In this document: positions 25,445 to 50,736 of the stretch, piece by piece | How positions within the stretch are numbered: position 1 is the first letter of the stretch | How the letters are laid out: each line of letters starts with the position of its first letter | NCBI GenBank assembly: GCA_963971305.1 | Contig: CAXARO010000193.1 | Coordinates: 1-64,000, forward strand | Direction of reading: 5' to 3' | From: Arcuatula senhousia | Lineage: Eukaryota; Mollusca; Bivalvia; Mytilida; Mytilidae | Length of the DNA stretch: 64,000 nucleotides | Program-made: the position numbers and the translations under genes | Notes under the pieces: model-generated | Told to the model about the DNA's origin: nothing | Seen by the model: only the letters and a program-made list of their open reading frames with translations | Database searches by the model: none

Positions 25445-28400
25445 TTAATCAATGGAGAAACCAGAAAAAGAAGTATACCCAGATCCATGAAGAGCTTCTC
25501 CACCAAGACCATGCATGTGACGAACAAATATGACGTCATTTTTACGACACTGGACTACCATATTCATGGTTCCGGAAACGCCGGTGCTGTACCCATAATT
25601 CCTTCCAATGACCTCACCATTCTTCATCACTTCTGTGTGAACGGTTCCTCCTGTAGAAAACATCGTGGTTGAAAAATGGTAAAGTCCATCGCGAGGCACC
25701 GTAAATACACCAGTGTTGTTATTAAAACTTGAGGCCGTGTCGGTGATGGTTTTGTCGAAATGAATCGTCTGTTCTTGTCCTAGATTTGAATGTTGTGAAA
25801 GTGTTGCATAGAAACCAACAGCTTGGTGGTCCGTCCCTAAAAAGATGATTCAAAACTATTCATGACTACACAAATTACTTACTTGAAGTTGCACATCACT
25901 TCTTAAACTCAAGTTACTTATAGTTGCACTTCACTTCTTAAATTTAAGTACAAACCTGCCTTAGCAGCCACCTCTATTAACCTGTCTTATACAGCCACAT
26001 ATTTTTGTCCCTTTCTATGATGAAATCAACAAAAATGAACCTGAATTAAGCAGTCACCTGTCTTAAGTGGCCAATTTTTCACGTCCCAAGGGTGACCTCT
26101 TAAAACAGGTTTGACTGTAGTAACAATTCTAATATTAATGTTTTCATAATGTTCCGATATTGGTGATGTTGTTATATATATCAATCGGTCTTTCTGTGTC
26201 GAGGAATAGCAGAAAAAAACCCAGTTGTACCGTTCCAGGTAAACAAGATTGCTACGCGTAGCCAATGTCCCCCGCCGCAGCATTAAAGTTGAAAACTTAC
26301 GTACTAAAATTTGAATAATTAAAATGGCAGTGCCATATGATTACCTTCATATCATGGCTAACCATCTTACAAAATTTCATGAAAATCTGAGTTCACAAAG
26401 TGTTCCTATGACCTATAAAGTGAACAAATCGATTAAGTCCCACAACTCCTATAAAATTTGTTGAATCAAAATGGTGGTGCGATATGATCAACAACATATC
26501 ATGACAACCAATCCTACAAAATTTCATCAAAATCCGTTCAGCAATCTCAGAGGAGTTGCACTCACAAAGTGGTCCTATGACCTAAAATGGACAAAGTCGA
26601 TAAATGCCCATAACTTCTTAACAATTTGTTGAATCTAACTGGCAGTGCGATATGATCAACTACATATCATGCAAACAATCCTACAAAATTTCATCAAAAT
26701 CCGTTCAGCAGTACAGAGGAGTTGCGCTCACAATGTGTTCATATGGCCTAAAATGGACAAAGTCGATAAATGGCCATAACTTTAAAAAAATGGCGAATAT
26801 AATGGCAGTGCGATATGATCAACTACATATCATGACAAACAATCCTACAAAATTTCAACAAAATCCGTTGAGCGGTCTCAAAGGAGCTGTGCTCACAAAG
26901 TGTTCCTATGACCTAAACTTAACAAAGTCGATAAAGTTCCATAACTCCTATAAATTTTTTATAATCAAAATGGCGGTGCGATATGATCAACTACATATCA
27001 TGACAAACAATCCTACAAAATTTCATCAAAATCTGTTCAGCAGTATCAGAGGAGTTGCGCGCACAAAGTGTTCCTATGGCCTAAAATGGACAAAGTCGAT
27101 AAATGCCCATAAATCCTAAAAAATTGTCGAATCTAAATGGCAGTGCGATTTGATCAACTACATATCATGACAAACAATCCTACAAATTTTCATCAAAATC
27201 CATTGAACGGTCTCAGAGGAGTTGCGCTCACAAAAGTGTGACGGACGCACGGACACACGGACGGACGGACGGACAAAGACCATTTGTATGTCCCTCCGTC
27301 GCGTTGAGGGGACAAAAAGAAAATCGCAATAGTTTAAATATATAATTGTGTTGAGACGCTAACACAAAAGTCATCCAAAATGGCCTTGGATGGTAACCCA
27401 TTTCAATCAGTATAATAAAATATGCCTAGATATCAAATTTCGTTGAAATTGGGAGAAGTTGACTTTTAACTAGGCAGGAGTGTAGTAAAATGGCTACAAT
27501 TTTGAAAAACCAGAAATTTGATCTTTAGTCTGATAGCATCATTGAACTCAGCATACCCATTTGCCCAAAATAACCCATTTTTATTACAACACAACAATTT
27601 TTAACTTTTTCAGTGTTCTATTTTAGTATTAACGATCACCATTTAAAACGGCAACCATTAAAAAAAATCATACGTTGTTTGCTCATCTTTGAGTGACACT
27701 CTTTCATATGATTGAGTATGGCATCTCTGAGAGATAAGGGTACATGTTCAATGTCGAAATCAATGAGTCGCCAAAACTCTGTTTTGCCGGGCGACTTAAC
27801 ACTAAAAGTTCCTAAAATAATTCTTTTTTCGTTATCAGCCACTAGTTGAAAAGTTCAAAATTGAGTTAAAAGATATGGTGGTTAATTGTTTTAATTAGTG
27901 TTTGACTGGCCTGCTGTACTGAGATGATCACCTCAATATCCCTATTGTGTCTCGCAACTATGTTCTATGGTCATTACCGGATCCTAAGATCGCAATGGAA
28001 GAGGGATGTTTGGCCCAATAAAACCTGGTTCAACCCACCATTTCGTTTGAAATGCCTGTACCAAGTCAGGACCATTGCGATCCACCAATTCTCCGGTATG
28101 ACTGATTCGTTTTTGTCATTTTCTCTGGACTATGAGATTGATCATTCAAGTTCGGTAGTTTTGTTCTTACTTTTATCGCATTCCTGATTTGTTTAACGTA
28201 ACCGACTGAAAATATGCATTTTCCACCAAAGTTCAGTTTTTCCACTAAAAAAAAAGTCATTTTCAGTCTCAAATTTCTATATTTCTGACTATCATTTTAC
28301 CATTCTTAGTTCCAATTTAATGTTGAAAAGGACATAAGACCATCAGGCAATTCAAAATCAGTGTACCACATGAACAATTACTCAACAAATATAGGAAAAC

Positions 28401-28649: not shown

Positions 28650-31322
28650 ACCTAAAATCAGATTCTAAATGTATCTTGACAAGACATATTAACTTTATTA
28701 TTTGATTTGAAAGATGGATTCTGCTTTTTATATTGTAATTGGCGTTATGTCTTCTATTATATATATATTATTTTGTATTGTAGGATATTCATATGAAGAT
28801 GTGACGTTATTTTTATAACGAGTGGCGAATATACCCTCAGTAGAGTCTAGTTTGTCGTAGGAAGCAACTATCGGTCTTAGGAAAAGTGCTTAGCCCATAG
28901 AGCGTCAAATATGTGTACCTTAGGTGGCTAAAAAGGGTGGCTCTCGTCGGGTGTTGTCAGATCTGTCATACGGAAAGCCTGATCGCTGACGATACAAAAA
29001 ATGAAAGAAAAGAAGAAAAAAAAACTACAAACCTTGAGATATGAAAAGATGTTATGTAATGTTTATTTATTTTCAATCATGAGGGAAATTTAGACTTCGT
29101 AGATTTTAAATATATGAGTATGGTAATACAAGTACCACTACATTTTTCTCAGGCTTTTTTTTTACCTTGTGTTCGCTAAAAGGTGTTAGGTAAACTTCAT
29201 ATCAAAGTCGTGGAATCTTAGAACAACCCGAAATTCCCATTAAACCACTGAAGTTGATAGGCAGCAACTTTCTATCCAGCTATAAATTCAAACCTATCGG
29301 CTATCGAAAATCTCCAGTTGGCCCACGGTTAACCTCCGTTACATGCAAGGAAAAAAGAAATTGCACAGCTGTTTAGAGCTGATGATCCATTTGCACTTAT
29401 ATACTCATGGAAAAAAGAAACTATGCATGTCTTTTGGAAATAAATTGTACCCAAATTCCTCTTAATCAGAAAATTGTAAAAAATGCAGTTATCGAGTTGA
29501 AATTTTCACTGAATGTCGAGTGGCCCATGCAGATCATTTTTGGGTAAAAATCCGAACATTTTTGAATTCCAGTTTCTGAGATTTAAAAAAAACCCATTTT
29601 TTTACCCCCAGAAATCAAAATCAAAATTTTCATCCAAAATTTAAGCTTGTTACTTTCAATCACTTCAAAAATGTGTATTGCTTTCAAAATGAGATTTTGT
29701 GAATTTCAAGTTGACACTACCTGATTTCAAACTGCAAACAAAACATCTCTTAGGCGCCTAAAAATTAAGATTTTTGTCAAGATCATTAGGAAAATGGGGG
29801 CCAAAGTGTGTAAAGAGTGCCACGCCTTAAGCATGTAAAAGATCCCTACTACGAACATTTCCCTGGGAAAGTGGTCTAAAAGATTGATTTTTTCAATGTT
29901 TCCCGTTCCGCCCCAACATTTCAAATCATAATTTTATGTTCAAATATTGACAACAATATCATTGAGCTATTTAATAATAACAAATGTGTAGGCAGTTCTG
30001 AAGTAAAACTTTCCTCATGCTTTTAATTTAGTTTTCTTTGTATTGCAGTGCATAAGAGTTATAGTTGGTATTGATTGCAATAATTATTGTCATGTTCTGA
30101 CCCATGCCATTATTGAAGAATCTTACTCGATTAACACTTTTTCGAAAGTACTTGCTGCCCATCAACGCAAAGTTGACGAAAAGTATAGTAAGCTTTTCGT
30201 TTGATTTTCGGCATAAAAAAAATCCGTTTTCTTTTTCTTTTTGTTGTTGTTCAGAACTACAAATAACACCGAAAATAGTGTAAAAAATTGAATGCAAGTT
30301 TTAAAGTACTCAACGACTGTTATTTTCCCGCGAAAGTTGCATGTCATTCATTTAATGGTTAACACAACTTAAATTCTTGATTCTGCCATTAAGTTGAGTG
30401 CTAATAGTATGTTAAATATTAAATACGTTCTTACATCGAAGTAAAAACATGAAATGCAGGACACCCACATGAAATAGTTAACGTGTCATAACAAAGCCGC
30501 TCAAAGTGGGACAAATCTATCATTTGAAGATAAGAAAGTTGATTAAATCTAAGACTGCATGCGTAGATATTGTTATGCATACCAGAAATATAATGATTGT
30601 TTCAACTCATCTTTCTAATAATCATCGGCCTCACGAGTCTTTTAAGACCCAAAGAGGATATTAACATGAATGTGTATGTATTATTGGTATTATTGGAAGG
30701 TCAGTAATAACCAAAAGTGTCAAAAAGATGTACTCTTGCTTTTGTTCAAAAAGAGTTGGTACAAGGAAGCCAACACCTGTCAATTTATAGCCATTTATCA
30801 TTAAGTAAAATATGTGAAAATATTATGCTATGATTAATGTTTAATTTTGAAAAATTAAGAAAAAAAGATTTATGTTATGCAATTTTAGTAATAACAATTA
30901 AATTCTAATATCAGAAATGAGGAAAACATACGTTGATCTAATTTGTATTGTTTTAAAACATAATTGCAATTAGACCTACGATACATTCAAAAGGGCGTTT
31001 GGTTCTTTTGAGAAAAACCTCCACAATTATCCAACAAATATTTTATTTTTAGCACCTTATCATGTTATTGATTTAAATATTTTGTAAGTATAAAAAAGAA
31101 CTTAGAGAAGATATGTGCGTGATCTGTGTAAACTATAATTCCAATTCTTTCCAAAGAGTTAAAAGGTAAATATGACATAAACATACAAGTCGAACGGCTA
31201 CTACTCAAAATACGCAAAAGCTTTTTTATTTGAAAAAAATGTGTTATTGGAATATTTAGATATTGTTTTATGTTGACATCTTTCTTATCTTATCTTGTTC
31301 TACTTGTTGAAACCTTTTTCAG
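28650..31322. other. Intergenic DNA without a supported gene
   Basis: This lies between the C1q first exon and the first coding exon of the peptide gene. A patch near 29800-29860 (AGAGTGCCACGCCTTAAGCA) looks like a dispersed repeat. The untranslated first exon and promoter of the peptide gene should lie here, because its coding exon begins after an acceptor (CCTTTTTCAG), but I cannot place them. Confidence 0.6.
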
Positions 31323-31333
31323 AATCCTGAAGT

Positions 31334-34300
31334 ATGTTTGGGAAATCGTTTCTTATTATTTTGGTAATCGGATTGGTTGCGGTCTCGCTGGTTACAGGGA
31401 TATACACCCGACGTAGAGCGAAGATAAGACTTTCTTATAGCCCGAATAAATATCATATAAGAGGCGTAGGTAAGCAACTTAATCAAATATCTATTTTGAT
31501 ATTAGGGAAAGCGCAGGGATAATGTTTTGCTGTTTAATGCACGTATGTACCGTATGTATGCCGTTCATGTCCAGGATAATGGCAGCAGAAAGTTAAAAAT
31601 GGAGCCATTGATTGCATTGTGGATGGTGATTGTGTCGAATGTTTCGGAATTTTGATAATGCCCCTAGGGGCTGGGCTGCATTGGTAGCCTAAAGACACAT
31701 TATTCTTCTAGGTTATTTGGAATACGGAACTTAAACTTTGCTAAGTAGTTGCACTATGGATGTAAATTTTGCCGAAGATTTCGGAATTTTGATGATGTCC
31801 TAGGGGATGGGCTTCATAGGTAGCACCAGGGCACATAATTCCTTTGTCAAACAACTCCTCCTAGGTTATTTGAAATACAGAACTGAAACTTGGCTCAGTA
31901 ATTGCACTATATGGATGGATATCGTGCTGAAGGTTTGATAATGCCCCAAGCAGAGCTGGGCTAAATAGTTAGCCTAAGGGCACATTATTCCTCAATTCCT
32001 TTGTCATGCAACTCTCTCCAGGTTAATTGGAATATGGAACTTTATATAATGTGTCAGCCAAAATTACCTCAGAAATAGTTTAGATACATGTATTATACAT
32101 AAATTATCTTTATTTCTTATAAAACAATTTGCAGGTTAGTACTTCTGTCAATTCTCTTATTTGCCCCTTATACTATCAACACAAGAGGAGCGCGGGGATA
32201 TGCAGAGTGGCTGCTTCGACTTGGTTTTATCAAAGTACCGCCGGTACAATGTACTTGGAAGTCACATTTGAACGAAGGCAAGCGATTTGTGTTGTGGTTT
32301 ATAACTTTTTCGACAGAACTGAGACAATAATTCGATATGATTCGCAGGACAGCAGAAGGCAATTACTGAATTTAAATATATCTTTATTTATGTATGAATT
32401 ATGCTATCTTACAACGATATGAAATCGATATAACTACATGTTTTTTTCCGGTAACTTTTATCTGAGACAATAATTCGATATGGTTTTCTCAGCTTTTATA
32501 TTAAGCATTAATGGTTTTAATTTCTATAATTTGTATATTTGTATATTCCCGCTAAAATATATTTCCCTATCGCACAGGTGACTAAAGTAACATGATACAC
32601 AAAATGTAGTATTAAAAGGTTATAAAAATATAGCAAATACTATATCATCATTAAAAACGAAAGAAATAAACAAATCAAATAATAATAAGGGGTTATACTA
32701 ACATAGATAAGAAAGCTCGTTGACCAAAAAAAAAATGAATACACTTCTACCGGAGAGAGAATGCACAATAGGATAAGTTATATGTCTCGGGAAAAACGCG
32801 GATTGATTTCTACGAAATCCTTTACTATACTTTGGAATCCTTGACCTTCAAGTAAAAATCATATTGTATTTACTAATTATCGGCAAATCAAGACAAGAGC
32901 TATTTTCTACAAAAGATATAAAAAGACTCATGCGATTTATATGCGAAAGCAAAGCGTTGAACAATCTTTTATGCTTAATTGAATAACGAAAACCCCCATA
33001 ATCTATTAATTCTTACGGTTTAAATATCTATATATACCCTTATTCCCACAAAAAGAGACAATAACATAGAAACCTAGGGATTGGACTTTTATGCAATAAT
33101 GTACATGTTGTACTTGTAAAAAGCTAAGTTTTGAGTTTACGTTGAGTTTCAGTTCAAGGGGCATCGAAGACTTGTAAAAATGTGTCGTATAATTTTCTTT
33201 AATTCTTTAAGAAGGTTAAAGTAACTAAACGTTTAAAAGGAAAGTGGCCGATGGAGATACATGTCACCTATATTTTTAAATATTCGACATAAATCGCTTA
33301 AAACGAAAAAGTATAATATAATGAAACTACAGATGAAATATCAAGAGCCTGCAGAATAAATGTTTTGAAAGAAATTTGTATAAAAGCTAATTGTATATAA
33401 GATATTAGGTCTTCATTTATCATGAAGGTGTATATCGTCTGGAGTATAACCGCTTAATACTCTATAGTAGTATGAGATGAAACCAAATGTAAAGTATCTA
33501 GAATTGTCAAATGCCAATTAATATAAATATAAAGACACTGTTGCACAAAGTTGCTGTGAATTTCTGTGAAAAAATGTTTTGTGGTGCCACAAGACTACGG
33601 GAAATTCCAAAATGATTCTAAAATGTCGCTAGAAAAACGAGTTACATTAAATTTCGAACCACATGTGTTTCAGAAATATTTTCATTGAATTATGTCACCG
33701 TATCTTAAGCGACATTACATCTCAATTCCCCCGCTCAGTTCCAGGCACGTTTATTTTGTAGATCTTTTTTGTACAAATGTTTCTTTTGTCTTTGCCACAA
33801 CCACATGTAACGTTATCAAAGAAATACAAGTATTATTGTTTGGTTCAAATCTATTTTCTACTTTATAGCCCCAATATTTCAACAAAAATGGCATGTAGCG
33901 CGATATTGTTTTCATACTATATGCTATGAACATACACACCATTATTAACCGTAAAAATCTTAAAGAATTATAAGGGGCCTCATATCTCAATGCAAGTCTC
34001 ACTAATATATAGAACGCCATTGCTGACTTATGATGATGTTTTTCATTATGTGATGAGAATTCGTCATTATGTGATGATAATTTGTCAATTTGTGATGATA
34101 CTCTTCATTATGTGATGATACTTTGTCCTTATGTGATGATACTTTGTCATTATGTAATGATACTTTTTTATTATGTGATGATACTTCGTCATTATGTGAG
34201 GATACTTTGTCATTATGTGAGGATAATTTGTCATTAGGTGATGATACTTTGTCATTATGTGATGATACTTCGTCATTATGTGATGATACTTCATCATTAT

Positions 34301-37300
34301 GTGATGGTACTTTTCCCCCATAACATAAACAAACTTAAACAAAATGGCTCTAAAAGTATTTATGAGGTTTTACTAAAAATAGGACTTTCTCATCTGTACA
34401 TTTACTTTGAAAGTGAACAGATAACAGCAGACATTATATCCCTGTTAACTACAGAAGATCTAAAAGCTTAAGTAATTACACAAACCACTAATTTGATGAA
34501 CCTGAGGATAGAATGTGTCAAACTTGGTAGTAAAAATAACAAAACAAATAATGAAAGATTTGACATTCCCAAGTCTTCCGTACAAAGTTGCTAAGACCAA
34601 GGTTTCAAAATATCATACATAGCAAAAATACATGTTGTATTAGAGCGTACAGTGTATCGTAGAATGGCTAGGTTCAATCTCGGTGAACATGACTTCTCAT
34701 CCATAAGTGAAGATTAACTTAATGCCTTATTGTTTGATATACAAATGACAACAAAGTTCCAGACAATAAATTTTGCTACGCCTGACGCGCGTTTCGTCTA
34801 TTCAAGACTCATCAGAGGCGCTCTACCAAAAATTATTAATAAAATTTCAACAAAAATGGCATGTAGCGCGAAGTTGTTTTCATACTATATTATGCTCTGA
34901 ACAGACACCCCATTATCAACTGTAAAAATCTTAAGCAATTATAAGCAATTATAAGCGGCCTTATATCTCAATGCAAGTCACACTTATAGTAGATTATTCT
35001 GCTGATTACAAAATGTTGTCGTGTTCAAATGTGGCGTATGTGAACTAGATTTTACTGAACATTTTTAGTAAAAATTGATGTTGTTCTTTGCAATACGTGC
35101 CATTATGCGCATCGATGGCTGATCAAAAATATGTTTACGAAATTAAAGATTTAGGAAGTATTAAGCACTGGTGCATCCATTGTTCAAACCCGGTTTGAAA
35201 ATATTAATTGTCCGTTTAATAACAGTGTTTCATGCCCTTTAATGCAGCATACAGAATCGAGAAAATCGAGACCTTTTAAAACAATTGTCTTGTGCTCGCA
35301 CCCAAGTTGATCCTGGAACCGCCCATGTTTACCATTATAAAAGAGTAAAGGTTGTTTACAAAGTTTTAATATATAATAAATCATATATTGGTTATTGGAG
35401 GACGACCATTTGATTTTGAGGGGGCCGGCAGTTTTGGTCGAGTCAGATTATTTTTTTTTCAAAATATTCCGGGTCAAAAAAAATAATTGTCCATCGCTAC
35501 GCGGCGGGAATATTTATTTTCTATGTAACACACCAAAAAAAACAACTTGGGACAGATTATTCATTTAATGATTATTTTTTTCCAACTTTTTCCAGGCCAG
35601 AGTATTATTCTTATAAAACTGACAGGCCCAGGCCCCCTCTCATAATCAAATGGTTGTCCCCTTCATTTTAAATGCAAGAAACTGAAAATTTGGAACCATT
35701 TATGGTGGTGGAGGTGAGTGGGTGGGGGTTACACAAAAATTAACTATCCCTTGAAAATATTTGTCATAAAGAATTAATAATTTCTTCAGCGCTGTTCATC
35801 ATCGCCATCGAGACTCACAAAATCAAGCTTCCAACCTTGAGTCAGCAGCGAAACAAGTAGGACTCTACATCAAGTCATCAACCCTGCTAAAACAAAATCC
35901 ATGAGAATAAATGCACATCAACAAAACAAAACAAAAGTTAGAGGCGCAGAAATCGACGACATCCAGGAATTCACCTACCTGGGAAGTGTCATCAGTACAA
36001 CAGGTGGCACTGATGAAGATATCGTAGCAAGAAAAAAGAAAGCAAAACAGGCTTTTGCTATACTGAGACCAATTTGGAAAAGCAAAGCCTTAAGAACATG
36101 CACAAAATTGAGAATCTTTAATACAAATGTGAAGTCCATCCTACTCTATGGGTCAGAAACTTGGAGACTAAATGCAACCACAAAAAAAGACACTACAGGT
36201 CTTTTTAAACAGGTGTCTCCGAAACATCATTGGAATAAAGTGGCCAAATAAAATCAGAAATGAAGATCTTTGGAAGCATACAAAACAAGAGCCAATTGAA
36301 AGAACAATGACAGAAAGACGGTGGAAATGGATTGGTCACACACTGAGAAAAAAACAACAACAACGTGACCAAACAAGCGCTAGAATGGAACCCCCAAGGA
36401 CATCGTAAAAGAGGAAGTCCAAAGAACACCTGGCGGAGTGATCTAACATCAGACCTTCAGAAGATTGGTAAAACATGGGGAGAGGCAAAAACAACAGCCA
36501 AAGACAGGAAGAAATGGAAAGCAGCAGTGGTCGCCCTATGTCCCCCATGGGACGAAGATGATTAAGTCAAGTAAGTCAAGTCAAGCTGTTCATAATAATA
36601 CTATGATCTCATAAAGACAAAGTATCATCACACAATGACAAAGTATCATCACATAATGATACTTTATCACATAATGACAAAATAGCATCACACAATGAAG
36701 AACAAAGTATCATAAAAAAATGCACCTGTAGAAAAATATGGGATTTCTATCTCTCAAATGAGTGCAGATGTTGGTTTGTCGTAGAAAAAAAAATGTTTTG
36801 TGTTCCTTTACCGGATTTGACACACTGAATTAAAAATTAGCAACACGACGGGTGTGCTACAGCAGGCAGGAACCGCTTACTCTTCTGGAGCACTCTTGTC
36901 ACGACGGGTTCGCGTTGTTGTTTTCCGTTCGGTTGATTTTGTGTTTTGTGTTTCTTCGTACTGTTTTTGTTCGTGCTGACCGGTTTCGTCGTTGCCCTTT
37001 CGGACTTTTGACACTTAAATGCCCCATTTGGTGCCTGTTTGCTTCTATCATCACATTATGAAGAAGTATCATCACAAAATGAAGATGTATTATCACAAAA
37101 TGAAGATATATTACCACAAAATGACAAAGTATCATCATTTAATGACAAAATATCCTCACATAATGAAGAAGTATCACCACACAATGAAAAACATCATCAT
37201 GAGGCAGCTATGGCGTTCCATACATATAAAAGGTAAACTTTGTAGAAGGAGGTCATCAAGCATTTTTGGAAATAAATATGATAAAACTTCTAGATACCAT

Positions 37301-40300
37301 AAATTACACTGCGGTAGTCAACATGCTGATGTAATCTTATCATATTTAGGATTATTAGATTACCCATAGACACCAATATACGAAGTTTGGTCTGGAATTG
37401 AAAAAGTCACCAACATTTATTTTCATGTTCTAATCGGTTTGTTTAACTGCGTTTAACTTTTGATGAACTTTAAATTAAACTTATTCAATGTGGCATTACA
37501 TCTCAATTCTATTCCTACTTACAATCTGTTTACTTTATAGCCAACATTTTATCTAAGCGGATCCCCCCAAGAGGCAAGAGAGGTAGGTGTAAAAATTGTA
37601 TGTTTAGTTTTTTGTGCATTGTCTAGTAATGTGATAGGCGGAAGGTTGGGCCAAAAAACTAGTTCAACCCCGCCACATATTATATGTGCCTGTCCTAAGC
37701 CAGGAATCCTTGACAAAGCTTTCGTTTGTACTTGTCTTTTTGATGTTCTGTTCCTTGTTTAAAAAGGGTCTATCTGTGACTATTTCAGGACTGGATTTGA
37801 ATTCTATGCATTTTATTTAGACCATTGGCCAATTGCAGAACCACGGCCTCGTTGAAGGCTGTTGGCGGTTGTCCATTGCGGTTTTTCTAAATTGCCGCTT
37901 GATTGTAGGCTGTGTCGGGTACACTTATTCCACATCTCATTATTTTCTATTTGTAGAGGAAGCTAAGCGTATATCCCCATTATATAATATCAGGTGCGGC
38001 AAGCGAGGTAGGTGTATAAATAAAAATAATATGAGATAGCAATACCCCAATAGCACGCGAAGATAACAAAATAAAATCAATTTCAAGCATCGATTGGGCG
38101 AAATAATTAGGAACTATGGGATAGTATTTCCCGCCATATTTCTGTGCATGTGCATACTTTCTTGGAAACCCGAACGGAGCAGAAAATTATCAATCTCCGC
38201 AACAGATTATAGTCACTCTGTTTCTAAGAGTGGAAAATAATCATTTTTTGGGTCTCGTGCACTTTGACAGACTCTGTACATAAGTGAGTTTCGATAATTA
38301 TTTATATATATTGAAAATACTGTAAACATCTTCCAAAACACCCAATTTTACTCTCTTTACGACTTGAAATCGCATTTTTGATTACTCTTCAGTTGTTTTT
38401 GTATGTTTTGTGGTGTCTGTTTAATCGTGCTCAATCTCAAATGTCCAAGAGAAAAGGCAAAACAAGGAAAACACCAAAGAATTTGAAGATCACAATGGTC
38501 TTGACTTGGTACACCAAATCTCCTTTACATCTAAGGATCAGTTGTAACATAAACAAAACATGGCTGTGAGACATAATATGCATATTAAGGTGGTCGGCAT
38601 CTCAGTACAATTAATCAAACACTAATCGAAACAATCACCAAACATTTCATGATCTCTAACATAATTTTCAAGTACTGTAAACCAACAAACTTTCGCGGCT
38701 ACAAACTTTCACGGTTTCATTACATTGGACGTTTTCACGAAGACAAAAATTCGCGGTTTTCGAAATTCGTTTAATGAATACAATTTCGCAGTGACTTATT
38801 CGCGACTTCAAACTTTCCCAGATGTTAAGTGCTCACGAATCCCGCGAACGTTTATCGCACGCGAAAGTTAATTGGTTAACAGTATTCCATCAGTGGATGA
38901 TTACGAGGAAAGAATTCTTTTGAGGGACTGTAAGAGATGTATTTTCTTATAACCTGGGTCTAATGTCGGTAATGGGCAAGCGGTGTCGGATTAAAAAAAA
39001 AACCTGGCATACAAAACAACATTTGCAGGTGATGAAGGTATGCTACTTTCTAGGTTAGGAAAATTAGATAATTTGAAAATAAAAGCCGTCTCTTTATTCG
39101 TAAACTTTTGCACTGAGATGACCACCCAGGTCAAATTCGCGACAGTGACGTTGAGCAAGTGGATTCGGTGGTTTCTGTTACCTCTAACTCTGGATGATAT
39201 ATTAAATGGATTCATCTAACAAACAATTTGAAGACTACTGAAAAAGGGTAGATGTTGGTAGGGGCTGTATGGTTTTTCATTGACAGCATGGTAGCAGTTT
39301 GGCTTGTTCCAGTATTGCAACACTGTATACACTTAATATGTGTTTTTTTTTCATTATAAAGTTGATATTCTCCCTTTTCTAGTCGATATTGAATACGAAG
39401 TTTAATTCATTTTCCCGATATTTGGCAAAACCCGAAAAATCAAAACATTTTGCTGATGTTAGAAAAAAGGGACCGACCATTTAACTTGGTTTTTAGCTAA
39501 AATATATTCACTTTTTCTTGTAGAGTATAATTGAATATTTCACACCAATTTATCTATTCAAAACAGTCTTTGTTTTGATATTTGAATCAATATCTGAGTT
39601 GCCAATATCAATCATCTTAAAGACGTCAGCGTCATCGAGCGCACTTTTTTTGTCTCCGATTTCTGTAAATTAGCGAGTTTGGTACAGGTATTTAGAGATT
39701 TTAGGTCGGGTTGCTCAGCAAAGAGTTTGAAGAAAACCCTTACATTCTGTTTACTTTGTAGATGAAGCTAAACCATGTAAACGGATGTCCGAGAATGCCA
39801 TGTTCGGCAAGCGAGGTGATGTTTAACTGCAAATACATTTTATACTTATTGAACTGTATTTTTAACTAACTTGGTTTTCGTTATCACACATTTAATTCAA
39901 CTAAACCAGCAATCTATGTTTAGTTCGAGTTTTCGTCAGCAAACATTTACACCCTTACTACATATACTATCTGTTTATTTGTAAATAAAGGTAATATTTT
40001 TTCTACCCTACTGGGAAGATCAATCTCAGTGTCCAAGAAAAAAGACAAAACGAAGAAAACATACCAGAAATTTTTACATCATTTATGCTGTAACAAGTCT
40101 TTAAAACTGAAATATAGGCTAAAAATTTGCAAGATGACTGTAAAAGATGCTCTGTTTTAGAACGCCCAGCCTCCTGAATTCAAAGATTTAACAAAAATAT
40201 TTCATTAATTCATATCCTTTGCGTAATAAATTTGTAAGCCAATTTTCATTTCCAATGGATTAATTTTAAAACTTGTAAGCTTTATAAAAAAACATTACAA

Positions 40301-43300
40301 TAAAATTCAGAATTTGATATTCCTTTCACTATAAGAAATCGACGTGTACAATTAGATTTTTCAATCAGAGATCGATACTTGTGGAAGAATTTTGATAAAG
40401 ATTTTACTAACTTGTGGTATCGATAACTTTGTTTTAATAATTTTTCAGTAATAAAACGGTTTTAATGATTAAAACCAGTAACACCACTGCAGATCTGAGC
40501 ATATCGTACTAACGGTGAAATGTAAACCCTGTATGACGGCGCTAGTGGAACATCTCCTTCAAGAAAAGGGAAATTTATGGTAGGGAAGGTAAAGTTGTCG
40601 CGTTTATCGTATACTTTGGTTTGTAATTTTCCGTCAATAATGCTTAAATCTAAATCGAAAAACCGGTGACGTTAGATTTGTTCAAAATTAATTCAGAAGG
40701 ATATATATCTGTAACAAAATTAAAAAATGAAGGACTGTTGAGTGAAGAATGTCGTCCAACTATCTAAAAGTATTATTAAAAGTTTCGATTAGGTTCTGTT
40801 TGTCGGGGTCTTTTTGTAATTTAGCTATGAATTGTGATTCTAAACAGTATAGGAAAAGGTCAGCTATAAGTGGCGCACAATTGGTACCCATAGTAATACC
40901 AATGATTTGGCGATAAATTTGTTTAACGAAACAAATGTAAATATTATCTAACAAATAATTTAGAGCAGTAATAGTTTCTGCATCAGTCCAGTTAATATAA
41001 CCTTTTTGGGTCTCGTTACTAAAAAATGATTTACTAAATGAGTTTGAAATTCTGGAACTTTGGAACAGATGACGTCATTTTCATTGAACGCACTTGTTTT
41101 GTCGCCCTCCGAGTTATGTAAAATAGCAATATTGTACAGATATAAAGAGAGTTAAGGTCGAGTTGCTCTCAGCAAAGAGTTTGAAGAAGAAAACCCTTAC
41201 ATTTTTTTCACTTTGTAGATGAAGCTAAGCGAAGGTTCGGCAAGCGAGGTGATGTATAAGTAAAAAATAATTTTTTACATAATTATAAATCTGAATTGTA
41301 ACGAGAGAGTGGGTTGACTTTTACGCCCTTGTAACACTATATAAGTTTTATAAAGGCGATGATAATGAATGAAATTAAAATTACATCAAGGTTTCAGACT
41401 TGAATTTTGCTAGGCCTAAAGCACGCTACGTCTATTCAAGACTCATCAAAGGCGCTCTTCCCAAATATTGAAAAAGCCAACGGTTACCAGTATATGATTT
41501 TGAGGAATATTAAATAGTAAATCCAAAAATACCAAACTTGGGAACCAAGTTCCCAAGTTATAACTAAAATCATCAATCTACGTCTAGGGATGGTGTAGAC
41601 AATTTTGAAATTTAAACAGATAATTTATAGCTTTGATGTGTTTCCACGGTTATGTGTTGATAACGTGAATATAAAATGGTGATGGGAAATAAAGGGATGG
41701 GGTGAAGACTACTGATAAAGGGGAGAAGTGGATAGGAATGGAAATTTTAGCGTATGCGGTGCTTGACCATCCTTTAATAATTAACATGCAGTGGGACACT
41801 CTCCACCCACACACGGGGTGAAGACTACTGATAAAGCGGAGAAGTGGATAGGGATGGAAATTTTAGCGTATGTGGTGCTTGACCATCCTTTAATAATTAA
41901 CATGCAGTGGGACACTCTACACCTACACACGTTGGCCTACTATGGTCAGTGGTCAGGATTTCTGAAATTATAGACCTGACAACCCCACAGATGAGGGCCA
42001 TCCTATTCTAGTGTACACATTTGGTCGCTCTGCGGGCTGAGCACTAATCCGATGTAAGAATCCCAAACCCATAGGTCGTATCTTAAGACAAGCTAGACTT
42101 TGCTGTTGACCTATTTGACGCATAGGCCCCGCACGAGACAACTATATTGTAAACATCTAACGTGGTTTCCGTTATCATATATTAAAACGAAAGAATATGG
42201 AATATGTGCCAAAAAGAAAGAATCCACATATTGATAATATGATGCAGGTTCAACCTGATAAGCTCCCGCAGATATATTTTAGGGGATGACATATTTGATT
42301 TTGACGGGGGTGAGTGGCAGTTCTTGTAAATAAATAATCGTGTCGCAAAAGAATTAGATAAATAATCTGGCCTCTACTTCCAAGGTAAAAATGAATTGGG
42401 TCAAAGAAGTATGATTCAGCCGTGGTCAGAATGGTTGATTAAAATTTGAAATCGACACTCTTATTATACCCCGTTTAGTGTCCCAAGATTCTTTACTAGT
42501 ATGGTATATCAAAAATAAATAATCTCGGCGGCACAAAACGGCGGAAAAGACCCCTCCCCTTTTCAGAATCAAATGGTTGTCGAATGTCCCCTTATTTCTT
42601 TAATAACAGCATCTGCATGGTTTTGAAAAGGACCACACCTGCAAACAGAACGAGGAAGTGGTTTTATTTTATCAAACTAAAGATGACGTCATAATACATG
42701 CTTAATATAGACGATAGAACCGGATGTCATAGAGGGCACCTTTAAAGAGTTTCTACTTTCATTTTCGAATGTAATGTTCAGAGAAGAAACAATGTCATAT
42801 ACTGCTCAAGACACAACATGGAATATTTATAATTTTATGACTGCCGAAATATTTCGGCAGAATATTTATTTAGTTGTCATGTACAATACGCTTGTTGTTC
42901 CACGAAAATTTGAATGAAAGTTTCCCGCCATTCTGTAATTTTGTTTTGAACAATTATGACGTCAATGAAATATATAGCGTTTTCATTAAAAAAATCTTTA
43001 CATGCATCTCTATAGCTAGAAATATTTCAAAATATTCTTATTAATATAATATTTACGTATTTTAATTTTAGAAATACAAATTACAAAGTAGAAAATTAAT
43101 TTTGCATTCCGTGCCATTGGGTGCGGATATGTTGACTAGCTTATACCTACCCCGGTTTAATGCATCATAGTACGTATACTCAAGCAAAAAAAATGGCGGG
43201 AGCTTATTATTTCTATGAATGACAAACAAAACCATTCAATCCCTGTGAAGCGCTTTCCTGGACTAACCTTCATCAGACACGCTAGGGGTCGAAAAATTGG

Positions 43301-43800
43301 AACACCGCTATGATATAAGATTTGAACAAACAAAACACGAAAGCCAAAAAATATATTTACAATGACTTCAACTAGATCTTGTAGCATTTGTTTAGTCTAG
43401 CCATTTGACATGTTTAACGTTAGGCACGGACCATTTGATTTTCTGGGGGGGGCCTGGGATTTTTTTGAAAAAAATTTCCCGGCCCTGATTTTTGTAAAAA
43501 AAAATTATCTGGCCAGCACCTAGGTTGAAAAAAATAACCTGGTTTCAATCTTGCCAATTGAAAAAAAAATAATCTTGCCAACAAAATTTTCTTGCTTAGT
43601 ATGTGTGTGAAAAAAATAATCTGGCCCGCAAAGCGGGCGAAAAAAATTTCCCGGCTCAGGGTAAAATCCCAGGCCCCCCCCAGAAAATCAAATGGTCCGT
43701 GCCTTATGTTCGAGTACATTTGATATTAAAACAATCGTTAAAATTTGTAGATGACACCGAGCGGGCGCCTGCGTTTTTCGGAAAGAGACAAGCAGTATAG
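31334..43800 (+). CDS. Multi-exon precursor of amidated secreted peptides (predicted)
   Basis: Six exons join in frame to 120 residues: 31334-31469, 37541-37582, 37957-38007, 39762-39815, 41219-41248 and 43751-43800. Exon 1 follows TTTTTCAG and encodes a signal-like segment ([19 protein letters not shown]) and a basic stretch (YTRRRAK). Each following exon begins and ends in phase 1 and, except the last, ends in GKR before its donor. They read [58 protein letters not shown] and [20 protein letters not shown]. Lys-Arg sites and Gly-Lys-Arg ends predict IPPR-, ISPLYNIRC-, MSENAMF- and APAFF-type amides with DEAKR-like spacers. This is neuropeptide-precursor architecture, one peptide per exon. 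I cannot name the family. The exon 1 link rests on phase and order only. More exons may exist in the 6-kb first intron. Confidence 0.6.
32113..32362 (+). other. Short GC-richer open segment, unidentified
   Basis: After TTTGCAG the sequence is open in two plus frames (one includes [20 protein letters not shown], another [13 protein letters not shown] and a GKR) and differs in composition from its AT-rich surroundings. Neither frame joins in phase with the exon ending at 31469. It could be a relic of a mobile element or an exon of something else. I recognise no domain. Confidence 0.25.
32440..33840. other. AT-rich intron DNA with a possible relic exon border
   Basis: No gene is seen. At 33716-33762 the phrase CATTACATCTCAATTCC and an acceptor GTTTATTTTGTAG closely resemble the approach to the exon at 37541 (CATTACATCTCAATTCT, TTTACTTTATAG), but the bases that follow do not encode a GKR peptide. 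Confidence 0.45.
33870..34020. repeat. Repeat pair member 1 (with 34850-34990)
   Basis: TTTCAACAAAAATGGCATGT and the following roughly 130 bases recur at about 34850-34990 in the same orientation with small differences. The two lie either side of a minisatellite and a hammerhead ribozyme. Confidence 0.8.
34021..34323 (+). repeat. ATTATGTGATGATACTTTGTC minisatellite
   Basis: About fourteen copies of a 21-base unit. Related arrays in the opposite orientation lie at 36593-36720 and 37045-37195, so the units form an inverted pair around 34.3-36.6 kb. Open frames across it on both strands (repeated KYHHIMT, or SLCDDT) come from a unit length divisible by three. Confidence 0.9.
34778..34821 (-). 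ncRNA. Type I hammerhead ribozyme
   Basis: On the minus strand stem I is GCGCCT paired with AGGCGT. It encloses CTGATGA, a perfect stem II (GTCT/AGAC, loop TGAAT), GAAA and a stem III made only of the palindrome ACGCGCGT, then the cleavage triplet GTC. All core bases of the hammerhead consensus are present. Predicted cleavage is between 34784 and 34783. A loopless palindromic stem III is typical of metazoan hammerheads that act as dimers. A decayed relative lies at 41411-41456. The host element is not identified. Confidence 0.85.
34850..34990. repeat. Repeat pair member 2 (with 33870-34020)
   Basis: See the matching copy: TTTCAACAAAAATGGCATGT followed by a shared stretch to TATCTCAATGCAAGTC. 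This copy has a duplicated AAGCAATTAT. Confidence 0.8.
35398..35665. mobile_element. CCATTTGATTTT-ended miniature element
   Basis: The left end GGACGACCATTTGATTTTGA with a G-run faces an inverted right end (CTCATAATCAAATGGTTGTC). The interior has CGCTACGCGGCGGGAATA and T-rich stretches. It belongs to the same family as 43423-43703, which has a demonstrable empty site. Confidence 0.65.
35790..36590 (+). pseudogene. 5'-truncated RTE-like LINE fragment
   Basis: Three overlapping frames make the C-terminal part of a LINE reverse transcriptase. They read [26 protein letters not shown], then [17 protein letters not shown] and [12 protein letters not shown], then [15 protein letters not shown] ending in CPPWDEDD. 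Two frameshifts separate them. The 3' end is AAGTCAAGTAAGTCAAGTCAAG, a simple-repeat tail as in RTE elements. It is dead by truncation and frameshift. It lies in the first intron of the predicted peptide gene. Confidence 0.8.
36593..36720 (-). repeat. Minisatellite, inverted relative to 34021-34323
   Basis: The units AAAGTATCATCACATAATGA are the reverse complement of the 34-kb array. It directly follows the RTE-like fragment. Confidence 0.85.
36725..37040 (+). pseudogene. Retroelement 3' fragment
   Basis: [16 protein letters not shown] can be read near 36750-36790. It is followed by the same 3' flank as 3560-3760 (a CTTTACCGGATTTGA phrase, then the GTTGCCCTTTCGGACTTTTG phrase). It is therefore a third 3' fragment of the family seen at 3240-3760. 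Confidence 0.55.
37045..37195 (-). repeat. Second inverted minisatellite block
   Basis: Seven to eight units of the AAGTATCATCACAAAATGA type, in the same orientation as 36593-36720 and opposite to 34021-34323. Confidence 0.85.
37630..37760. repeat. Dispersed repeat shared with 27905-28190
   Basis: AGTTCAACCCCGCCACATAT and TGCCTGTCCTAAGCCAGGA match the C1q-region copy. It lies between two exons of the peptide gene. Confidence 0.5.
38673..38884. mobile_element. TACTGT-ended miniature inverted-repeat element
   Basis: The left end TACTGTAAACCAACAAACTT and the complement of the right end TACTGTTAACCAATTAACTT form an inverted repeat of about 27 bases. The interior is rich in TTTCGCGG motifs. TA at the borders fits a mariner-like target site. 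It is non-coding and lies in an intron of the peptide gene. Confidence 0.75.
40330..41090 (-). pseudogene. Reverse-transcriptase core fragment (minus strand)
   Basis: The longest piece reads [20 protein letters not shown], the box before the catalytic aspartates. Upstream is [20 protein letters not shown] and downstream LDDIL and [17 protein letters not shown] with stops between. The remainder towards 40330 is heavily decayed. This is the catalytic region of the retroelement family whose C-terminal part is at 3240-3760. A decayed hammerhead lies about 320 bases upstream on the same strand, which may be meaningful. Confidence 0.7.
41411..41456 (-). ncRNA. Decayed hammerhead ribozyme
   Basis: The minus strand matches the ribozyme at 34778-34821 through the stem II hairpin GTCTTGAATAGAC and the flanks. 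CTGATGA has become TTGATGA and GAAA has become GTAG, so both core boxes are broken. The downstream similarity (GCAAAATT..AAGTCTG) shows common descent. Confidence 0.6.
41698..41935 (+). repeat. 118-bp tandem duplication
   Basis: GGGGTGAAGACTACTGATAA to CACCCACACAC occurs twice in a row with a handful of differences (GGGG/GCGG, GCGG/GTGG, CTCC/CTAC). Parts of the unit resemble 3820-3890 (GGAAAATTTAGCCTATGTGG). Confidence 0.85.
41936..42226. other. No gene seen; GC-richer segment before copy B
   Basis: The stretch contains GGTCGCTCTGCGGGCTGAGC and CATAGGCCCCGCACGAGAC but no supported frame. It is the junction region where duplication copy B begins. Confidence 0.5.
43240..43283 (-). ncRNA. Hammerhead-ribozyme-like relic (copy B)
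   Basis: The minus strand carries CTGATGA, a GGTTAGTCC loop region, GAAA, the palindrome AGCGCT and UUC. Three stem I pairs (TGT with ACA) are possible at the predicted cleavage point, more than in the copy at 978-1015. Stem II is imperfect, so activity is doubtful. Confidence 0.35.
43423..43703. mobile_element. 281-bp inverted-repeat element with TTA target duplication
   Basis: The ends GGCACGGACCATTTGATTTT and its complement form a roughly 40-bp inverted repeat including GGGGGGGCCTGGGATTTT. TTA flanks both sides (43420-43422 and 43704-43706). Copy A shows the empty site with a single TTA (TTTAACGTTATGTTCGAG near 1130-1147). Insertion therefore followed the duplication. Confidence 0.9.
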
Positions 43801-43948
43801 GTGTATGTATATCATTTACAACAAACTTTCAAGCAATAAGTTTTGTAATACGATGAATTCGTTTAAGAAAAATAATAATCAGTGGGACATTTATTTTGAC
43901 ATGTTTGAACCGGTTTATTCAGCTGCCGGTTAAAAAATCTGTTTTTAG

Positions 43949-45309
43949 GTGAGCTTTTCCACCACTTGGCGTCCGTCGTCGTCTTTGTCGTCTGTTAATA
44001 ATTTTCAAACATTGACTTGTCCGATACCATAAGTCCAATTGCAACCAAACTTGGTACAGTTGTTAAATGACATTATGTGTACAAATCCATCGTTTGGATT
44101 TTTTATTCGTAAAAAAATATGACCGCCGTTCATAGGGGTCAAATTACAGTTTTTTTCCAAATAACTTAAAAACGGTTAATCAAAAATCTGTCATAGTGTA
44201 AAAGTGATCAGCACGTCAAGATCTACAAAAATGTAATAGGGTCAATGCTGTAGGATGTTCCATTTAGGAGTTATACCCCATAAAACGTCAAAATTGACCA
44301 TTTTTACAGCATTTCCTCATTACAATAAAATCGTGAACTTGTCTAACACCATACATCCAAACTTGGTGCAGTCGTTCATCAACATTTGAACTACAAAACC
44401 GTTGTTTGGATTTTTGATTTGTAAAATAATATGGCCGTCATTGCTAAAAATAGAACATATATAGGGGTTAATTGTATTTTTTTTTGCTAATAACTTAAAA
44501 AATGTTCAGTACTTTTAGATATACCTGCCTTGAAATTTTCAAGATAATCCAATTAGGAGTAATAACCCATGTAGGAGTTATTGCCATTTTTCGGATTTTT
44601 TTTTCCAAATTTGCAATTTAAACTCATTATCTTGAAAGAAGCAGAGGTACCAATGGGGTATCCGAATGTCAAAAGTCTGAACGGGCAGAGACAAAACCAG
44701 TAAACACCAACAAGAACGGGACAAAAACAGACAACATGTAAAACATGGAAACACAAAATCTGAATATCAATCAACAACTGCAAATTGCATATTTCGTCAA
44801 AATTAGTTTTGGCCACATTCCTCGACCATCGTAATTTTTTTATAATTTATTTATGATATCATAATACACATTTCTAGCATAAAATAGGTGTGGTCCATTT
44901 CATATTCGCTAATTTATACATGAAAATCAAGGAAAACTGTCACAAATTGTTATTTTTCACAAAATAGTCTATTTTTAACCTCACTACTCTCTTTTCTGAT
45001 AAATAATTGAAGGAAAAATTATTGAAATTCCTAAAATATAAAGACTTATGAACACTAATGCAGCAACTACAAGCAGATATATCAAAGTTGAATTTTTGGG
45101 CCATTTTCGGGCCTTCGTGGCTCTACTCCTTTGAAAATATTGACTTACAAAATTTGTTACAGGATCCATGACCATTCTTTTTAGGAGTCATTCCCCTTAG
45201 AACATCAAAATTCTGTTAACTTTATGACCCTTTCTATGTCAAATAGCCTATAATTCCGGCATTTAAGTCAGGTGAGCGATTCAGGCTCCTGTGAGCCTCT
45301 TGTTCTAGA
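43949..45309 (+). repeat. Dispersed repeat with TCAGGTGAG end (copy B)
   Basis: This is the counterpart of 1380-2745, starting GTGAGCTTTTCCACCACTTG and ending GTGAGCGATTCAGGCTCCTG. The middle (about 44780-45130) has other AT-rich DNA where copy A has a retroelement fragment. Confidence 0.6.
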
Positions 45310-45828
45310 TAACAATTACTATCCGTTTATTTTGTAGATGAATAGAAGCAGGGACGTCATACACATAGATCAATATTGAGAAAACAGTCATGCATGATTA
45401 TCTAATAAAATGTTGGATTACAATCAATTTTTTTAACTGGTAACTAACTAAGAAAAGGTACTGAGAAATTAAATTGAATTTAAGTTCATTATAACAAGCA
45501 TATTGAATAATGCACACATGATCTCATTCCTTGACCTCAAATTCAGAAATCAAAATAAACAAAGAAAGACCAAAAGAATTATGAAATCGTAAACAAATTA
45601 TCTCCTTTGATATTACAGAACATTAGCTAGCCAACAGCATGGTCACAGGCAATACAAAAATTAATTTTGGCTCAACAGATCAATAGAAATGCAGATACAC
45701 GACACAAACTTGATAGCGCTATGCATGGACTCGGCATCGTCTCCGAAGAGTAAGATGGTGTTAAACGCCCTTGTAACACTATGTACATTATGGCGATGAA
45801 CATGAAATGGGTGATAAAATGAACATGA

Positions 45829-46330
45829 ATGATGACAAACTTTTCCTTCTTGAACAGCAACATTCCTTCCGCTTCAGCTTATGGAGTTTACGTATCACAA
45901 TTGATTCGTTACTCCAGGGCTTGCGGGGATTACATCTATTTCCTTGGAAGATTATCACATCTGACACAAAAATTGCTAACACAGGATCATATTGTTCTTC
46001 GGTTGCTGTCTTCATTCAAGAAATTTTACTGACGACTCATGCGCTCATAGACAAATATGAGATTTCGATCTCTCAGAGGAGTGCAGATGTTGGTTTGTCA
46101 AAGGCTTTTGTTTTGTCTTCCTTTACCGGATTTGATACACTGAATTGGAAATTGGTAGCGCAATGGGTCGGGTGTGCTGTAGTAAGCACGCACTGCTAAC
46201 TCCTCCGGGGTACCTGAGTTACGACTTGAGCTCGCGTTAGTTATTGATTTCTGTTTTTTGTGTTCTTCGTGCTGTTCTCGTTTTTTTGTGGTAATGTCGT
46301 TGCCCTTTTGGACTTGTGACGCTCCAATGC
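45829..46330 (+). pseudogene. Degraded reverse-transcriptase fragment (copy B)
   Basis: This is the duplicate of 3240-3760, reading NIPSASAYGVYVSQLIRYSR and LLSSFKKFY before frame changes. It is no better preserved than copy A, so it was already dead at duplication. Confidence 0.6.
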
Positions 46331-46757
46331 CAATTTGGTGCCTCTTTGCTTCATGACAAATATGGGTTGGGATCAGAAACAAAGGAACAATCATTTTTCA
46401 AGACCACAGGAAAAGGGGATAGGTTGATAGGGGCGGAAAATCTAGCCTATGTGGTGCACTACTTGGCGGACACAAGGGCATCTTTTCCGTGCATGAATCG
46501 AAGCGTCCAATAAGCTATCCATATACGACAAACATCTCATATTAACTTTGATTCCAGAATGTCGAAATAAAAACTCAAGCTCTTACCTACCTTTTTTTCG
46601 GTGAATGTCAAGTGTCAAAAGTCCGAAAGGGCAACGACAATACCAGTAAACACGAACGAAAACAGCATGAAGAAACGCAAAACATGAAAAAACACAAAAT
46701 CAACCGAAACGTAGACACATTACATCTACAGATTGGCAACTTAATATCAACGACCTA

Positions 46758-46814
46758 GTTACGATAACGTAACCCTCACGGAGATTAACGGAGTAAGGGT
46801 TACGTTATCGTAAC
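46758..46814. repeat. Perfect 19-bp-stem hairpin (copy B)
   Basis: This is the counterpart of 4207-4261 with the same stem, one more base pair and one loop change (GAGAGT to GAGATT). Confidence 0.75.
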
Positions 46815-48640: not shown

Positions 48641-49345
48641 AAAAGTTCCGTCCCGTCCAGGCCCACATGAAACTTTACAGTAAATGTTACTTACAATAAA
48701 AGGAAGGATGGGGATAATTTTGGGTGTCTCTTCTTTTTTCGTTTTGAAATTAGGGGCCAAAAAGGGGCGGCTAAAAATGAAAGTTTTATTAGTTTTCCAC
48801 AATAACTTTAGTTCTGGTCGACTGAATGATATTTTATTTTTCAATAATGTTCATTACCATTAAGTTATTGATTGGCATGAATTTTTAGGTCTCCCCTTTT
48901 GTTTTTTTTCAGAAATGGGGAGGGGGCAGGATCTTTTCTGTTAACGTGTTTTGGGCATTTTTTTCCAAGTTGTGAACTGTTTTTTTTAAATAAAAGACTA
49001 TTATCTGTTTTTGAACCCTTTGCTGTTATCTGTTATCCTAAAAATAATTTTGTTGTTGAATGTTATGAGCATCATGAAAATGCTGTTATCTGTTATTTTT
49101 ATAATGTTGTTTACGAGGTAATTTTTTAATTACAAGTAGCTCTGGATTTTTGCTCGGCAACTCCACACAAATATACTTATATACTTAGCACCACAATGGC
49201 CAAACACACACATGTAAATCACAATAATTAAGTAGCTTGTATTTTAGTGGACACAGGAAAACAAGTTCAATTTAATTTTTATTCCATGCAGCATTCTAAT
49301 AAAATTTGGAGGTGGTATGGTGTGCATGCGCTAGCTAGAGATCCA
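48641..49345. other. No gene seen; copy-B-specific spacer
   Basis: This joins the two duplicated blocks of copy B and has no counterpart in copy A, where a 15-kb stretch including the THAP transposon takes its place. TTGCTGTTATCTGTTAT recurs twice near 49020-49090. No coding signal is supported. Confidence 0.5.
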
Positions 49346-50351: not shown

Positions 50352-50397
50352 ATGCTATATATCGATATTTCAAGGAGTAACCTCTCATCAGTAGCAT
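50352..50397 (-). ncRNA. Hammerhead ribozyme 1 (intact consensus)
   Basis: Minus strand: stem I ATGCTA pairs perfectly with TAGCAT. The core has CTGATGA, stem II GAGG/CCTT (one G-U pair, loop TTACT), GAAA, then the palindrome ATATCGATAT as stem III and the cleavage triplet ATA (cleavage between 50358 and 50357). All conserved positions are satisfied. The palindromic stem III suggests dimer cleavage. Confidence 0.88.
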
Positions 50398-50736
50398 TTG
50401 AATCGAAAGATTGAAAGGTCAAATTTCAAAACTGTTGAAAACGAAAAGTACTCAAAACCAAAACGTTCGAACAAGGAAGCCAAATCTAGCACCGAGGATA
50501 TCGACCATGTGCATTACAAGGAAAGAAACCTGGTGTTTTAAACAATTTTGAATTTAAAAAGCGGAAATTTCAGCAACAAATATATTAGAAATTTTATGAT
50601 AAATCGTGTCAGACAAGTCTGACGACCAGGCTTGTGATTACCTTCGGGGATCTGTGGTCCACCAGCAGCAGTTATCGCCTAGTGGTTTCAAAATTACAAA
50701 TACCAAAAACGCGGATATAAAGAGTTAATTTGGATT

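Follow-up and report, generated by a model that had tools for sequence, protein, structure and literature searches.

A predicted tandem family of precursor genes with one amidation-tagged peptide per micro-exon in the mussel Arcuatula senhousia

Introduction

Can a gene for secreted peptides be built from exons so small that each encodes a single peptide? This question is raised by a locus of the mussel Arcuatula senhousia that lies in the first 64,000 bases of contig C199 (70,073 bases), a stretch that we refer to as the window. The usual search for peptide signals looks for repeats within one long open exon. A preliminary description of the window proposed something different, a hidden gene made of micro-exons, each encoding one amidation-tagged peptide. 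Since its exons would be peptide-sized, only one peptide to each 30-54 nt, and would lie amid kilobases of repeat-filled intron, reading-frame or homology searches could easily miss such a gene. Here we examine the locus within the 1,036,387,356-base assembly (1803 contigs) and compare the predicted gene with its relatives and with known peptide precursors.

Results

The six stretches that had been proposed as exons all lie where they were placed, and together they read as 120 residues followed by a stop. The first, a signal-peptide-like exon (31334-31469), ends at a donor in phase 1, and each of the five later exons opens in that phase directly after a T-rich AG. Four of the five close with Gly-Lys-Arg and a G before a GT donor, and the last carries GKR and the stop. 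On the plus strand of the window, we predict exon 1 at 31323-31469, with the acceptor CTTTTTCAG, 11 nt of untranslated sequence, an ATG at 31334, the signal-peptide-like start MFGKSFLIILVIGLVAVSLVTG and a phase-1 donor. Six copies of this exon are available (one on C199 and five on a second contig, C6), and the CTTTTTCAG acceptor sits just 5' of the ATG in all of them; the translation has a hydrophobic start, in a frame that is open in five of the six. Further upstream, a TATA-box-like sequence, TATAAAAAA, lies at 31089-31097 (+), its TATAAA aligning in five of six gene copies and absent in copy I of C6, and an AG/GTAAAT donor block is likewise kept in five of six copies when the sequence upstream of exon 1 is aligned. 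The box and the conserved donor suggest a short 5'UTR exon at about 31119-31165 (+), with an approximate start some 30 nt past the TATA and an end set by the donor.

The predicted micro-exons follow on the same strand. Exon 2 (37541-37582) encodes ANILSKR-IPPR-GKR and exon 3 (37957-38007) encodes EEAKR-ISPLYNIRC-GKR; identical copies of the two are found on C6 at 54171755 and 54170890, respectively. Exon 4 (39762-39815) encodes DEAKPCKR-MSENAMF-GKR, and its C6 relatives read MSENAIF, ISENAMF and MSETAMF (twice); a further one has GKR changed to GER. Exon 5 (41219-41248), DEAKR-RF-GKR, is a shortened duplicate of exon 4, with which it has about 150 bp of upstream intron in common, and it is represented on C6 by five copies with the same protein sequence and one truncated remnant. 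The peptides listed in the preliminary description (IPPR, ISPLYNIRC, MSENAMF and APAFF) are all encoded, and the list was one short, as 41219-41248 encodes only the dipeptide RF; an RF-amide dipeptide would be an unusual product. The internal micro-exons, at 42, 51, 54 and 30 nt, are all multiples of three with phase 1 at both ends.

Predicted exon 6 (43751-43800, +) encodes DDTER-APAFF-GKR-QAV-stop, has GTGTATG directly 3' of its stop, and recurs in four copies on C6 and one in the window at 1184. We also predict a terminal exon 7 (45338-45425, +; 3' end approximate) that reads D-E-stop in phase 1, with the acceptor ttattttgtag (AG at 45336-45337) and an AATAAA at 45404. Its relatives are a window copy at 2773 and four copies on C6 (D-D-stop, AATAAA), each after an exon-6 copy. 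Exon 7 could follow exon 6, via the GTGTATG after the exon-6 stop, or any of the peptide exons; judged by eye, the donors GTGATG and GTGTAT look weak. The joined frame of 120 residues holds five GKR tags, and it is made up of several predicted peptides that are bounded by dibasic sites and tagged with glycine, as are the frames of C6 copies III and V.

The second exon 6 and exon 7 of the window stem from a large tandem duplication, in which 1-6057 corresponds to 42227-48633 and 21235-24775, with insertions, to 49338-62899. The duplication places at the left edge of the window the last two exons of a second, upstream gene copy: an exon 6 at 1184-1233 (+), which reads DDAER-APAFF-GKR-QAG-stop, and an exon 7 at 2773-2860 (+; 3' end approximate), which reads D-E-stop and has an ATTAAA at 2840. 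Exons 1-5 of that copy would lie before the start of the contig. Between the two window copies, exons 6 and 7 are not better kept than their background (46% and 40% of windows, respectively, are as good).

The window holds several mobile or repeated sequences. A palindromic insert at 43443-43703, flanked by TTA, with the ends GGCACGGACCATTTGATTTTCTGGGGGG and lying 47 bp 5' of exon 6, is present only in the right duplicate, the left having an empty site near 1136; it is a MITE-like insertion that postdates the duplication. Intron 1 contains short-period repeats of the TGATGATACTTTGTCATTATG type, in both orientations, at 34028-34314 and 36591-37199, and intron 2 contains a dispersed repeat (37595-37951) with at least 38 occurrences, at 87-90% identity, beyond C199 and the C6 array. 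Tandem repeats with a unit of about 160-170 bp occupy 26305-27239 and have expanded differently in C6. An LTR-type retroelement at 52049-59560, with 397-bp ends that are 99.7% identical and two long minus-strand frames, is presumably BEL/Pao-like. A LINE-like protein encoded in the window has 44 database matches at an E of 1e-50 or below, 11 of them named as Mytilus, 4 as bacterial MAGs and 29 without a name, in keeping with a mussel origin.

When the exon-1 protein was searched against the genome, all eight candidates matched: C199, five copies in a tandem array on C6 (E values of 7e-13, 0.0012, 0.0064, 0.0099 and 0.35) and two weak matches elsewhere on C6 (1.2 and 1.8). The array comprises five gene copies, some incomplete, on the minus strand at 54.112-54.176 Mb, with exon 1 at 54175546, 54152326, 54139255, 54128390 and 54117168 (copies I to V). 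In addition to five signal-peptide-like exons, it contains four terminal exons encoding APAFF, APAFL or APAFY, four last exons, and phase-1 micro-exons for RF, MSENAIF, ISENAMF, MSETAMF, IPENFRI, IPPR and ISPLYNIRC; with C199 included, exons 1, 6 and 7 each occur six times. Exon-1 coding lengths of 136, 148, 76, 151 and 151 nt keep the same phase in five of the six copies, and that of copy IV is 152 nt. Among the 24 longest frames around the array, inspected by eye, several are reverse transcriptase-like and no host gene was recognised.

The copies differ in both content and condition. Copy I has exons 3, 4 (MSENAIF) and 5, no exon 6, and exon 2 three times at a spacing of 215 bp (54171755, 54171540 and 54171325), of which one is intact, one has lost its donor and one has an extra base; this triplet is exon birth and decay at one place. 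In copy II, exon 1 is shortened, two copies of exon 2 are decayed, exon 4 encodes ISENAMF, exon 5 survives as the truncated remnant, and the GKR of exon 6 has become G-stop (APAFLG-stop). Copy III encodes MSETAMF, IPENFRI, RF twice and APAFL. Copy IV, with a frameshift in exon 1 and the GKR of its first module changed to GER, continues with IPENFRI, RF and APAFF, and copy V encodes MSETAMF, IPENFRI, RF and APAFY. The C199 gene, copy III and copy V are fully open through exons 1-5 and their exon-6 frames. Beside decayed exons, the C6 paralogues thus retain most of the set, phases, Lys-Arg sites and GKR tags included, which supports the proposal of a hidden micro-exon gene. That proposal was incomplete in three respects: the gene is a member of a tandem array and not a single gene, it likely has additional 5'UTR and 3' exons, and its exon at 41219 carries nothing but the RF dipeptide.

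A diverged cluster of DEAKR micro-exons lies elsewhere on C6, 12 Mb from the tandem array. Here one of the two weak exon-1 matches (41957386, +) opens with MFGKTFLFTVIFMLVCVTMVQGRFTRKQRAS and has an acceptor AG just 5' of the ATG and a phase-1 donor. It is followed on its 3' side by phase-1 micro-exons at 41961627-41961680 (DEAKRIPDDNSFKFKFLR), 41961958-41961993 (DEAKRIPAFYLR) and 41964314-41964367 (DEAKRIPDDNSFKFKFFR). Another micro-exon at 41962845 has a donor that looks weaker, and two more lie near 41982483 (DEAKRIPDDNSFKFILGR) and near 41985485 (DEAKRIPNDNSFKFYSGK), the latter with an apparent donor out of phase. Just two of these six exons have a glycine tag, one of them being that with the out-of-phase donor. 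As four of the six lack the tag, amidation looks younger or less constant than the DEAKR spacer and the arrangement of the exons. The other distant relative of the signal exon, at 42128640 on the minus strand, reads MFGNSFLITMILGLACVTMVIGRHRQRSNEHYQR, and no DEAKR exon was found within 10 kb of it.

We searched for homologues at several levels. Within a database of 5.8 billion proteins, the 120-residue frame had no match at E of 1 or below among 45 word-sharing candidates. A profile of three precursors, scored against the 7992 candidates with the most words in common, matched a single protein, from Plectus sambesii (E of 0.18); this protein has MMFGKR repeats, and we judged it not homologous. 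Both searches are confined to proteins that have 5-residue words in common with the query and a length 0.55-1.75 times its own; the database includes proteins of Mytilus edulis, M. trossulus and M. coruscus, so the lack of a homologue carries some weight. Pfam returned no family at an E of 1 for two precursors. In the literature, PLYNIRC was absent from article text, and among the matches listed for six other predicted peptide strings none was by its title on such peptides, supplementary tables being beyond the reach of both searches. Neither wording for exon-per-peptide neuropeptides nor microexons together with bivalve peptides found a match.

The predicted gene invites comparison with the precursors of molluscan neuropeptides such as FMRFamide, LFRFamide, Mytilus inhibitory peptide, myomodulin and FFamide/SIF, in which a signal peptide is followed by short peptides that are bounded by dibasic sites and tagged with glycine (PMC4208409, PMC4200219). 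The predicted window gene has dibasic separation and glycine tags as well, behind a hydrophobic start that may be a signal peptide; it differs in giving each peptide its own micro-exon and in belonging to a tandem array. The preliminary description had named no family for the peptides with confidence. The only RF end is the bare dipeptide of DEAKR-RF-GKR, with none of the FM, FL or LF that precede RFamide in the FMRFamide and LFRFamide families, and no FV-Gly, as would be expected of a Mytilus inhibitory peptide (PxFVamide), occurs in the predicted precursors. The APAFF, APAFL and APAFY peptides have five residues, the last of them variable, and are not of the long GMNPNMNSLFFamide type, although APAFF has FF in common with it (PMC4200219). 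As to myomodulins (xG/KFFRIamide, MLRLamide), no MLRL is present and IPENFRI has only FRI in common with the oyster xG/KFFRIamide (PMC4200219); APAFL similarly has FL in common with the scallop ARYFLamide. All three resemblances are leads rather than tests, and agreement with the peptides quoted in PMC4200219, PMC6425005 and PMC5996578 nowhere exceeds the last two or three residues.

This lack of a clear match to the molluscan families, as described in those three papers, is in keeping with a second reading, in which the family is real and its products are exocrine, such as water-borne pheromones or defensive secretions, and not neuropeptides. A tandem array with turnover, peptide variants and pseudo-exons also resembles the skin-peptide cluster of frogs, where duplicated exons and genes form an arsenal (PMC3731216). 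However, the predicted peptides of 2-9 residues, with their acidic spacers and GKR tags, are like those of the molluscan multi-peptide neuropeptide precursors and are not long cationic antimicrobials. We regard exocrine products as possible, if rather unlikely.

Codon changes bear on whether the exons are, or once were, under selection. Taking one pair of intact exons per exon family (two for exon 1), we counted 20.5 silent changes over 130.7 sites and 14.5 replacement changes over 427.3 sites, a pN/pS of 0.22; the pairs were hand-picked and decayed copies were excluded, so this ratio lends support but does not amount to a formal test. Whole units of copies III-V, mostly intron, served as a control and gave 0.69-0.97, the three frames yielding one identical result since the script resets the frame at gaps. 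If replacements arose at these control ratios, a count this low would have a binomial probability of 3e-4 to 6e-6. For exon 1, copies II and IV were excluded entirely, and C199 and copy I past codon 31; for exon 4, we left out copy IV (GER) and the three extra codons of C199 and copy I, and for exons 2 and 5 the decayed copies and the remnant, respectively. Pooled over all intact pairs, pN and pS are 0.064 and 0.189 for exon 4, 0 and 0.143 for the IPENFRI exon, 0 and 0.048 for the RF exon, and 0.027 and 0.079 as well as 0.073 and 0.247 for exon 1; for exons 2 and 3, the one pair available of each shows no difference. Exon 6 goes the opposite way to the other exons, with pN (0.080) above pS (0.059) among its six copies. 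Apart from exon 6, intact exons differ from each other preferentially at silent sites, which further supports the micro-exon gene.

Indels and plain identity were compared as well. In the alignment of copies III, IV and V, 321 bp of coding sequence lack indels except for one extra base in exon 1 of copy IV, whereas 45-62 indels per pair fall outside it. Exon identity exceeded that of the flank in 18 of 19 comparisons, the exons being only slightly better kept, and fewer than 5% of flank windows matched the exon in only four of the 19, one of these being an exon 1 with barely aligning flanks. We consider plain identity weaker evidence for coding than codon changes and indels. It could be argued that the array was formerly functional, is now mostly pseudogene, and keeps its exons through recent duplication alone; intron identity among copies III-V is indeed 87-96%, against 95-97% for coding sequence, and copies I, II and IV contain broken exons. 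Set against this are the depletion of replacement changes among intact exons, the six silent changes to one replacement change that separate two exons of the far cluster, and the three copies that are fully open. We therefore judge wholesale decay to be improbable.

The arrangement is also distinctive in statistical terms. The strict GKR-G/GT junction occurs four times on the plus strand of the window, only in the four exons for which it had been claimed, and never on the minus strand, whereas 200 Markov-1 simulations of the same dinucleotide make-up predict 0.05 per strand; given that the exons also lie where they were first placed, the observation is real and not a product of chance. On C6, the 140 kb examined first had the junction 15 times on the gene strand and never on the other; 14 of these sites close a phase-1 exon, and the fifteenth is the exon-2 copy with one extra base. 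A relaxed scan of C6 (150 kb) and C199 (70 kb) found no further GKR-G/GT exons. Two exon-like matches on the opposite strand of C6 (EVHHLQEKGNLQLGKK and DVMIFQGKR) have neither spacer nor G/GT junction and were judged to be chance. Genome-wide, the acceptor-plus-spacer pattern TTTGTAGATGAAGMNAARCG had 13 exact matches in 1.04 Gb, 12 in the C6 array (one being the GER exon) and one on C199, and the pattern TTTAGATGAAGCNAARCG had six, all in the far cluster; both reversed-pattern controls gave none. Being exact, these scans would overlook diverged modules, and window exons 2-4, which differ from the TTTGTAGATGAAGMNAARCG pattern, are outside its 13 matches. Although the introns are rich in mobile repeats, with that of intron 2 widely dispersed, the excess of junctions, the confinement of the exact exon-start patterns and the agreement of phases and tags across several copies make it extremely improbable that unspliced look-alikes, arisen by chance or from repeats, account for the exons.

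Discussion

We consider it very probable, from the sequence evidence above, that the window gene is one copy of a tandem family in which a predicted signal-peptide-like exon and 30-54-nt phase-1 cassettes would be joined in a transcript whose product would likely be cut into short amidated peptides. Recurrence, unique patterns and protein-sparing substitutions together argue for a real, fast-turning-over family of predicted one-peptide-per-exon precursors. As predicted here, it is a real gene family of unusual layout that was not found annotated in the searches that we made.

By our model, the transcript would join the signal exon to a run of cassettes and end in exon 6 or exon 7, the latter providing a stop (D-E-stop or D-D-stop) in the cassette phase. 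The secreted precursor would be cut by prohormone convertases after Lys-Arg, freeing the acidic DEA spacers and glycine-ended peptides, and amidation of the latter would give IPPR, ISPLYNIRC, MSENAMF, RF and APAFF amides from the window copy, with a presumed role in signalling. Symmetric cassettes of this kind, each a multiple of three and in phase 1 at both ends, can be duplicated (as with exons 4 and 5), lost or skipped without harm to the reading frame. The family grows through duplication of exons and of whole genes, with copies later decaying or diverging, and copy I of C6, for want of its own exon 6, could splice into its neighbour, copy II. More speculatively, the locus may be a toolkit of the mussel lineage whose pharmacological unit is the exon, cassettes being spliced variably onto shared signal and stop exons, and across gene copies, to produce peptide cocktails particular to individuals or tissues; we offer this idea only tentatively.

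The exons of the Lymnaea FMRFamide gene hold many peptide copies each. In that gene, a common 5' exon is spliced to alternative peptide exons, as E1+E2 or E1+E3+E4+E5 (PMC4208409); it differs from the gene predicted here in encoding FMRFamide-related peptides, and not one peptide per 30-54-nt exon. Similarly, in Drosophila multiple peptide copies are often on the same exon (PMC2575521), in contrast to one peptide per micro-exon. The skin peptide genes of pipid frogs (caerulein, magainin) form a tandem cluster with tandem-repeated peptide exons, and one of them, cpf-St4, has no terminal exon and splices into that of its neighbour (PMC3731216), which is what copy I may do. The frog peptides listed there are longer antimicrobials or hormone mimics, and the likeness concerns how the genes are arranged rather than common descent. 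Schistosoma micro-exon genes (MEG) encode secreted proteins with many short exons, mostly multiples of three, and long introns that defeat annotation (PMC10526429). The internal micro-exons of the window are multiples of three as well, a likeness of layout only; the schistosome exons are mostly 15 bp, and the string "amidat" is absent from the main text of that paper (PMC10526429). By layout, then, the nearest systems among the published descriptions are the frog skin-peptide genes, the Lymnaea FMRFamide gene and the schistosome micro-exon genes.

If genes of this kind are common in bivalves, published peptide inventories would be incomplete. Exons that have newly arisen, diverged or died can be compared within the one array, which makes it well suited to testing how new peptide signals originate.
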